A stretch of 63,110 bases of DNA, taken from contig REEE01000154.1 of assembly GCA_007695245.1 (NCBI GenBank), positions 1-63,110 on the forward strand. The letters are read 5' to 3'. Position numbers and translations under genes: made by a program. Below are positions 61,743-63,053 of the stretch, one piece after another. The notes under the pieces were generated by a model. The model searched no databases. It saw only the letters and a program-made list of their open reading frames with translations, and was not told the DNA's origin. Numbering within the stretch: the first letter of the stretch is position 1; every line of letters starts with the position of its first letter. This stretch comes from Candidatus Competibacteraceae bacterium. Lineage in GTDB: Bacteria; Pseudomonadota; Gammaproteobacteria; Competibacterales; Competibacteraceae.

Positions 61743-61971
61743 TTACGCAGTATTTTGCCCGCCCTCCATCGGGCTTGCGTGACCGGATCGTGACACACCG
61801 TCCAGAACCGCCACGGCCGCCCGCACGTTCTCCGGCGCGAGGTGCGCATAGCGTTCGGTCATGGTGATGCGAGCGTGGCTCAACAGATCCCGCACCTCGG
61901 CCAACGCCACCCCGGCGCTCACCAGCCATGCCGCGCAAGTGTGGCGTCAGTCGTGAATCCGAAAATCCGCC
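61743..61971 (-). pseudogene. Decayed tyrosine recombinase (integrase) C-terminus
   Basis: On the minus strand the DNA reads the last ~75 residues of a phage-type integrase: DFRIHD-stop-RHTCAAWLVSAG, EVRDLLSHARITMTERYAHL, APENVRAAVAVLDG. The Arg/His box (usually HDLRH), the later His and the nucleophile Tyr are visible, but the Leu of HDLRH is replaced by TGA and the N-terminal part is lost at the edge of a MITE-like repeat (61972). The position next to tRNA-Met fits an old island integrase. Confidence 0.75.
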
Positions 61972-62087
61972 TCCTGTAAATTTTCCAGTGATGCCTTCGT
62001 CCGGCAACCGCAACTTGTAGTGTTGACTCTATCTGAGCCTACTACAGGAAGCGACCACCCCAATTTATCACTGGAAAATTTACAGGA
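61972..62087. mobile_element. MITE-like element, copy 1 (116 bp)
   Basis: The ends carry perfect 21-bp inverted repeats; the inner 20 bases are CCTGTAAATTTTCCAGTGAT at 61973-61992 and ATCACTGGAAAATTTACAGG at 62067-62086. There is no coding capacity. The interior begins GCCTTCGTCCGGCAACCGCA. A second copy in the same orientation lies at 62794-63053. No target duplication is obvious at the flanks. Confidence 0.8.
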
Positions 62088-62143
62088 AGCAAAAAAGGGC
62101 TGATGCAACAGCTTTTCCCCAATACCCCCACGGAGTCCACGTC

Positions 62144-62365
62144 ATGACCATTAACGAACTCCTACCCTCGGTCGCCACCCTCTCCCACGCCGAAAAATTC
62201 CGGCTGGTGCAAATTGTGCTGCGACAACTGGCGGAGGAAGAGGGCATCGCCAGCCAGCTTCCGCCTGTCGATGGCTTCGACCCGCGCCGTTATTTCGGTG
62301 TCGCCCAGCACACCCGGCAAGCCGTGGACGACTATCTGGCATCCACCCGTGAAGGTTGGAACTGA
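62144..62365 (+). CDS. Antitoxin of a VapBC-type pair
   Basis: 73 residues, with CGGAG eight bases before ATG 62144. The N-terminus INELLPSVATLSHAEKFRLV resembles small antitoxin proteins that precede PIN toxins. The end overlaps the toxin start by one base (TGATG), typical of toxin-antitoxin operons. No DNA-binding domain was recognised with certainty. Confidence 0.7.
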   Translation: MTINELLPSVATLSHAEKFRLVQIVLRQLAEEEGIASQLPPVDGFDPRRYFGVAQHTRQAVDDYLASTREGWN

Positions 62366-62745
62366 TGAGTTATCTAATCGACACTAACATCGTCATCTAC
62401 TACTTCAACGGATTGACCGCCGACGAAGCACTGCACGACCTGCTGAGAGAGAGCTTCAACATATCCATCATCACCAAAATCGAGTTTTTGGGCTGGAGCG
62501 AATTTGCTGCCAACCTCGCGCTCTACAGCCAAGCGAAGTTGTTTATTCGTCACGCTACCCTGTATGGCCTCACTGAGGAGATCGCCGAGCAGACCATACA
62601 ACTGCGGCAACAATTCAGGACGAAGACACCCGATGCCATCATCGCCGCCACCGCACTGGTAAACGGTCTTGCAGTCGTCACTCATAACACCGATGACTTC
62701 TCCCGCCTGGGCATCAAAACCCGCTCCGTGACGATGAAATCCTAG
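62365..62745 (+). CDS. PIN-domain toxin (VapC-like ribonuclease)
   Basis: 126 residues from ATG 62365. PIN acidic residues are visible: Asp5 in LIDTNIVIYYF, Glu in ITKIEFLGW, Asp in TPDAIIAATAL and Asp in THNTDDFSRL. VapC toxins cleave tRNA or rRNA and are neutralised by the upstream-encoded antitoxin. The pair sits between two MITE-like copies, so it is probably mobile or island-derived. Confidence 0.88.
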   Translation: MSYLIDTNIVIYYFNGLTADEALHDLLRESFNISIITKIEFLGWSEFAANLALYSQAKLFIRHATLYGLTEEIAEQTIQLRQQFRTKTPDAIIAATALVNGLAVVTHNTDDFSRLGIKTRSVTMKS

Positions 62746-62793
62746 CCCGCTATCCATCATGCTGACATAACCGAACAAGACCAAAAACAACCT

Positions 62794-63053
62794 TCCTGTA
62801 AATTTTTCAGTGATGCCTTCGTCCGGCAACCTCACCACCTATCGGTTTTCAAAATCGTCGGAGTCACCCGTTGGAAAGCGGCATTAAATGCTTGATTCGC
62901 CGTTGCGGGAACTCTGCCGAAAGGCTCTGAAATCATGGTTTGGGACAAACTGATGGGTGGTGAGGTCCGGCAACCGCAACTTGTAGCGTTGACTCCACCT
63001 GAACCTACTACAGGAAGCGACCGCCCCAATTTATCACTGGAAAAATTACAGGA
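62794..63053. mobile_element. MITE-like element, copy 2, interrupted by another element
   Basis: Same terminal sequences as copy 1 (left end at 62794, right end at 63053, with small changes such as TTTTTC for TTTTCC). Removing the 144 bases made of the inner element and one target copy leaves 116 bases, equal to copy 1. Same orientation as copy 1, about 700 bases away. Confidence 0.8.
62830..62965. mobile_element. Second 136-bp element nested in MITE copy 2
   Basis: Perfect 10-bp inverted repeats CCTCACCACC (62830-62839) and GGTGGTGAGG (62956-62965), flanked by the 8-base direct repeat TCCGGCAA (62822-62829 and 62966-62973), the signature of an insertion with 8-bp target duplication. The uninterrupted site in copy 1 has a single TCCGGCAA. 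The element is too small for a transposase. Confidence 0.8.

Follow-up and report, generated by a model that had tools for sequence, protein, structure and literature searches.

Remnants of a type I restriction operon around an intact vapBC pair, severed at two small transposons in a Competibacteraceae genome

Features at the contig end

The window, meaning the whole stretch of DNA analysed (63,110 nucleotides), is one complete contig (C194) of a draft genome in 389 contigs. Near its end, a tRNA-Met gene is followed by two direct copies of a short repeat, here called MITE-A, with a predicted toxin-antitoxin pair between them and pieces of an integrase gene, hsdS and hsdM abutting the copies. 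The features are:

61653 to 61729, + strand: tRNA-Met (CAT), called by ARAGORN, downstream of ychF
61743 to 61969, - strand: C-terminal fragment of a tyrosine integrase (Pfam PF00589, 3e-8)
61970 to 62089, + strand: MITE-A copy 1, 120 bp, complete, terminal inverted repeat CCTGTAAATTTTCCAGTGAT
62091 to 62147, + strand: last 18 codons of hsdS, KKGLMQQLFPNTPTESTS* (asterisk, stop), 57 bp; the stop overlaps the vapB start
62144 to 62365, + strand: vapB, predicted antitoxin, intact reading frame of 73 aa
62365 to 62745, + strand: vapC, predicted PIN-domain toxin, intact, 126 aa (PF01850, 1.3e-12)
62767 to 62791, + strand: first 8 codons of hsdM (TEQDQKQ), 25 bp, cut at MITE-A copy 2
62792 to 63055, + strand: MITE-A copy 2, 120 bp, split by a nested element
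62831 to 62964, + strand: the nested element, MITE-B, 134 bp, termini CTCACCACC...GGTGGTGAG, unrelated to MITE-A
63056 to 63110, no strand assigned: last DNA of the contig, past copy 2, matching neither integrase nor hsdM

The contig stops 55 bp beyond copy 2, and no overlap of this end with another contig of the genome was found.

A tRNA-Met gene is a usual kind of integration site. The order ychF-tRNA-Met is common to the relatives, while the genes downstream differ; being so variable, they offered no conserved gene 3' of tRNA-Met by which an empty island site could be defined. The integrase beside the tRNA is a fragment only, with an in-frame TGA at 61947-61949 (motif HD*RHTCAAW), and it halts exactly at the repeat, its N-terminal part being absent at copy 1. 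This arrangement had been pointed out in a preliminary description of the locus, whose reading of it as an island remnant holds. The closest homologue at hand, an integrase of relative G018 (82% identity over 65 aa), adjoins tRNA-Val and is several times longer than the fragment. A search of the rest of the genome, including beside other MITEs, did not recover the missing N-terminal half, nor does the integrase continue in the 55 bp after copy 2. Contig C352 opens with the C-terminal tail of a second, different integrase (locus L010, positions 1-71), and a MITE-A copy lies about 110 bp away from it. The interval between ychF and tRNA-Met holds a further dispersed repeat (61472-61593, type GTCATTCCCGCG...CGGGTATGA), which has matches of up to 96% in several sister genomes, for instance G007.

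Two families of miniature elements

The ends of MITE-A match the window four times, against none expected by chance. With inverted ends of 20 or more bp, and being short, non-coding and multi-copy, the repeat qualifies as a miniature inverted-repeat transposable element. The preliminary description had already recognized two direct copies, which are real, although it gave the unit as 116 bp where 120 bp is correct; it had also called for a search for further copies in the genome, whose absence it took to speak against its reading. There are about 20 elements (53 BLAST pieces), many of them no more than about 350 bases away from a contig end, and no other copy has the same sequence as copy 1. 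Copy 1 can be read through in one frame, so that we considered whether the repeat forms part of a protein; indels in other copies break this frame, and the idea was rejected.

Allowing up to three mismatches, we find MITE-A ends in 22 of 39 genomes from this bacterial family (9 of 13 genera), where a reversed control pattern gave no match. The exact 20-base end had no match in 84,980 species genomes, a set to which the present genome's own record possibly does not belong, and no MITE-A was found in plasmids and phages. Two viral contigs with an end-like 19-mer were set aside, each match being a single end without its pair. Sister genome G007 has a tandem pair of MITEs of this family (locus L140, positions 593-877), and the second of them shows a perfect 8-bp duplication, ATACCTTT.

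The autonomous parent type is found in relative G005, where contig C129 carries a 1.56-kb element that encodes a 390-aa transposase and whose ends are identical to those of MITE-A over 19 bases on one side, with one mismatch on the other. Related insertion sequences with MITE-A ends are present in G015 and G028. The best family for the G005 transposase is ISKra4 (NF033572, 4e-32), yet its score of 111.8 bits falls below the equivalog cut-off of 205, so that we call it ISKra4-like only. When the flanks are read 4 bases outside the CTG...CAG core, 5 of the 28 family members, counting MITEs and parent insertion sequences together, have a perfect 8-bp target duplication (z = 3.1 against shuffled partners); the five include the G028 insertion sequence and one MITE of the genome studied here. 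The family thus resembles ISKra4 in its transposase, its terminal repeats and the exact 8-bp duplication in G028, and differs in that the G005 transposase, below the cut-off, represents a divergent branch. Because it shares its ends with an ISKra4-like insertion sequence and shows 8-bp target duplications, MITE-A is identified as a MITE of such an element. A cognate transposase was not found in the genome itself, where the sole ISKra4-type match (contig C35) lacks these terminal repeats in the stretch examined.

At the locus itself, none of the four octamers flanking the two MITE-A copies pair as target duplications. The octamers at the present joins with integrase, hsdS and hsdM are AAAATCCG, CAAAAAAG and AAAACAAC, in that order. 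Copy 1 thus lacks a duplication, which is weak evidence, as only about one in five elements keeps a perfect one; the unmatched octamers lend support without being decisive.

The second family, MITE-B, explains the length of copy 2, since 264 is the sum of 120, 134 and 10. The nested element is flanked by a perfect 10-bp duplication, GTCCGGCAAC, at 62821-62830 and 62965-62974. The genome holds about nine copies of MITE-B, and as six of the seven with both flanks show perfect 10-bp duplications, a nested insertion younger than copy 2 itself is well supported by the sequence. The 116-bp second copy ending at 63053 that had been described earlier would mix part of copy 2 with MITE-B and has to be abandoned. 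With nearly all of its target duplications intact, the MITE-B family looks recently active.

The surviving middle of a restriction operon

As had been described, a toxin-antitoxin pair lies between the two MITE-A copies (62144-62745), and both of its genes are intact. The stop of vapB, which had no match in a Pfam/NCBIfam profile search, overlaps the start of vapC, and the combination of a PIN toxin with a small, overlapping upstream gene predicts, from the families involved, a VapBC toxin-antitoxin system. Compared with the nearest homologue, in G002, VapB has 55 of 73 residues the same (Ka/Ks 0.24) and VapC matches at 91% (Ka/Ks 0.09), values that indicate purifying selection relative to that homologue. 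The genome contains a single copy of vapBC.

What flanks the pair proved more telling. Directly after copy 1, the motif KKGLMQQLFP forms the C-terminus of HsdS; the same motif terminates HsdS at loci L147, L148, L149, L156 and L157, and the remnant is 82% identical to HsdS of L148 over 17 aa. The overlap of the hsdS stop with the vapB start is the same in L148 and L157, and Methylase_S domains support the identity of hsdS in the relatives. In a comparison of vapBC homologues, a 29-bp stretch after copy 1 (at 62091) was seen to recur upstream of vapBC in other organisms; we considered it as a cassette recombination site and rejected this, for it is the conserved hsdS C-terminus. On the other side, 26 bp match the start of the G002 hsdM at 88%, in the same order behind vapC, with the start codon ATG now ATA; the hsdM genes of relatives encode HsdM_N and N6_Mtase domains.

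Indeed, the closest relatives of this vapBC sit in type I restriction operons, in the order hsdS-vapBC-hsdM. The order hsdR-hsdS-vapBC-hsdM is complete in L146 and L157, and hsdS and/or hsdM also flank vapBC in L145, L147 to L149, L155, L156 and L177; these loci include the five best vapC matches, and their R, S and M domains were confirmed. The present locus shares this order with type I operons that embed a toxin-antitoxin, but only its vapBC is intact, with just scraps left of hsdS and hsdM. The earlier view of vapBC as a cargo had overlooked the origin of its flanks, which come from the end of hsdS and from the start of hsdM. No MITE is present at the G002 vapBC locus. In proteobacteria, Chlorobiaceae and cyanobacteria, members of this vapBC clade repeatedly have hsdS and hsdM as neighbours, a recurrence suggesting that the genes are stably associated or are transferred together.

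The toxin-antitoxin is thus the surviving middle of a ruined DNA-restriction operon, its neighbours severed exactly at two small-transposon copies. Integrase, hsdS and hsdM each end precisely at a MITE end, and none resumes across the same MITE.

Probable deletions between MITE-bearing sites

We consider it probable that the locus is what remains of a tRNA-Met island with a restriction-modification operon, eroded by deletions joining MITE-bearing sites. The island would once have borne a type I operon in the order hsdR-hsdS-vapBC-hsdM, and an ISKra4-like transposase would have mobilised the 120-bp MITE into the integrase gene, hsdS, hsdM and elsewhere. Later deletions would have linked one MITE-bearing site to another, leaving one MITE per join: integrase, MITE 1 and the hsdS tail on one side; the hsdM head, MITE 2 and the DNA of the contig end on the other. 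Between these deletions vapBC would have remained intact, and the MITE-B family would then have entered MITE 2. As restriction-modification operons of relatives carry vapBC, in G002 without a MITE, vapBC was in all likelihood there before the MITEs, which stand at the points where its neighbours were lost. Insertion of a single MITE is ruled against, because both halves of the interrupted gene would remain; a deletion from one MITE to another, by comparison, places two different genes astride one intact MITE with unmatched octamers, as is seen. The deletions presumably arose by homologous recombination between MITE copies. Recombination between direct copies, as suggested earlier, is thus plausible as the cause of past deletions, and copies 1 and 2 could conceivably delete vapBC in the future. 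Counting against this reading are the shortness of the hsdM (25 bp) and hsdS (57 bp) remnants and the truncation, at the contig end, of the DNA beyond copy 2; a strain with the pre-deletion arrangement was not found among the relatives compared, none of which is of the same genus.

Two serious alternatives would account for the same joins differently. The transposase itself may have made the MITE-adjacent deletions through abortive transposition, which predicts the same anatomy, a gene cut exactly at the element end, and cognate transposases are indeed present in sister genomes; several independent adjacent deletions would be required, however, and with no such enzyme found in the genome itself we regard this as unlikely. 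Alternatively, short reads could have been joined falsely through the repeat, creating the integrase-MITE-hsdS join. The 389-contig draft, the many copies near contig ends and the end of this contig 55 bp past copy 2 all invite that suspicion. Yet 120 bp is short enough for ordinary reads to span, the sequence of copy 1 is distinct from all others, and the hsdS tail, vapBC and the hsdM head are collinear with relatives, so that an assembly artefact appears highly improbable.

The preliminary description had raised the possibility of a composite mobile unit. A MITE-bounded composite, of a kind known for Tn3-derived TIMEs (PMC4133298), would have brought vapBC with its hsdS and hsdM scraps into the integrase gene, and like a TIME-COMP the locus does have a pair of direct miniature elements enclosing other DNA, with outer ends intact. 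Here, however, the transposase family is another one, the outer octamers AAAATCCG and AAATTATT agree at only 4 of 8 positions instead of forming a target duplication, and the 55 bp after copy 2 contain no continuation of the integrase. Since both the outer duplication and the other integrase half are absent, the composite is disfavoured. Nor is there any sign that the vapBC block ever moved as a unit: it is single copy, and the pair occurs in relatives' restriction operons, in G002 without a MITE. We therefore judge a composite very unlikely. The earlier account stands as regards the repeats, the integrase fragment and vapBC, and fails on the size of the unit, the anatomy of copy 2 and the identity of the cargo; the locus clearly illustrates genome erosion and finds no support as a transposon carrying a toxin-antitoxin.

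Returning to the deletions joining MITE-bearing sites, vapBC may have been kept because losing a toxin-antitoxin is costly. That the pair alone survived fits addiction, which one locus cannot establish; the stronger proposal, that vapBC acted as a barrier at which MITE-bounded deletions from both sides stopped because cells losing it were selected against, is possible but doubtful. If true, the locus would document, in a natural genome, how addiction shapes the end points of deletions.

The locus is ordinary in kind and instructive in detail. No description of a MITE family together with its parent type of insertion sequence turned up for this bacterial family in the literature searched, and both are now documented. 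The case shows how a defence island can be cut to pieces by small transposons without genes of their own, with a toxin-antitoxin left standing alone, and orphan vapBC pairs of other genomes may likewise be the leftovers of restriction operons.
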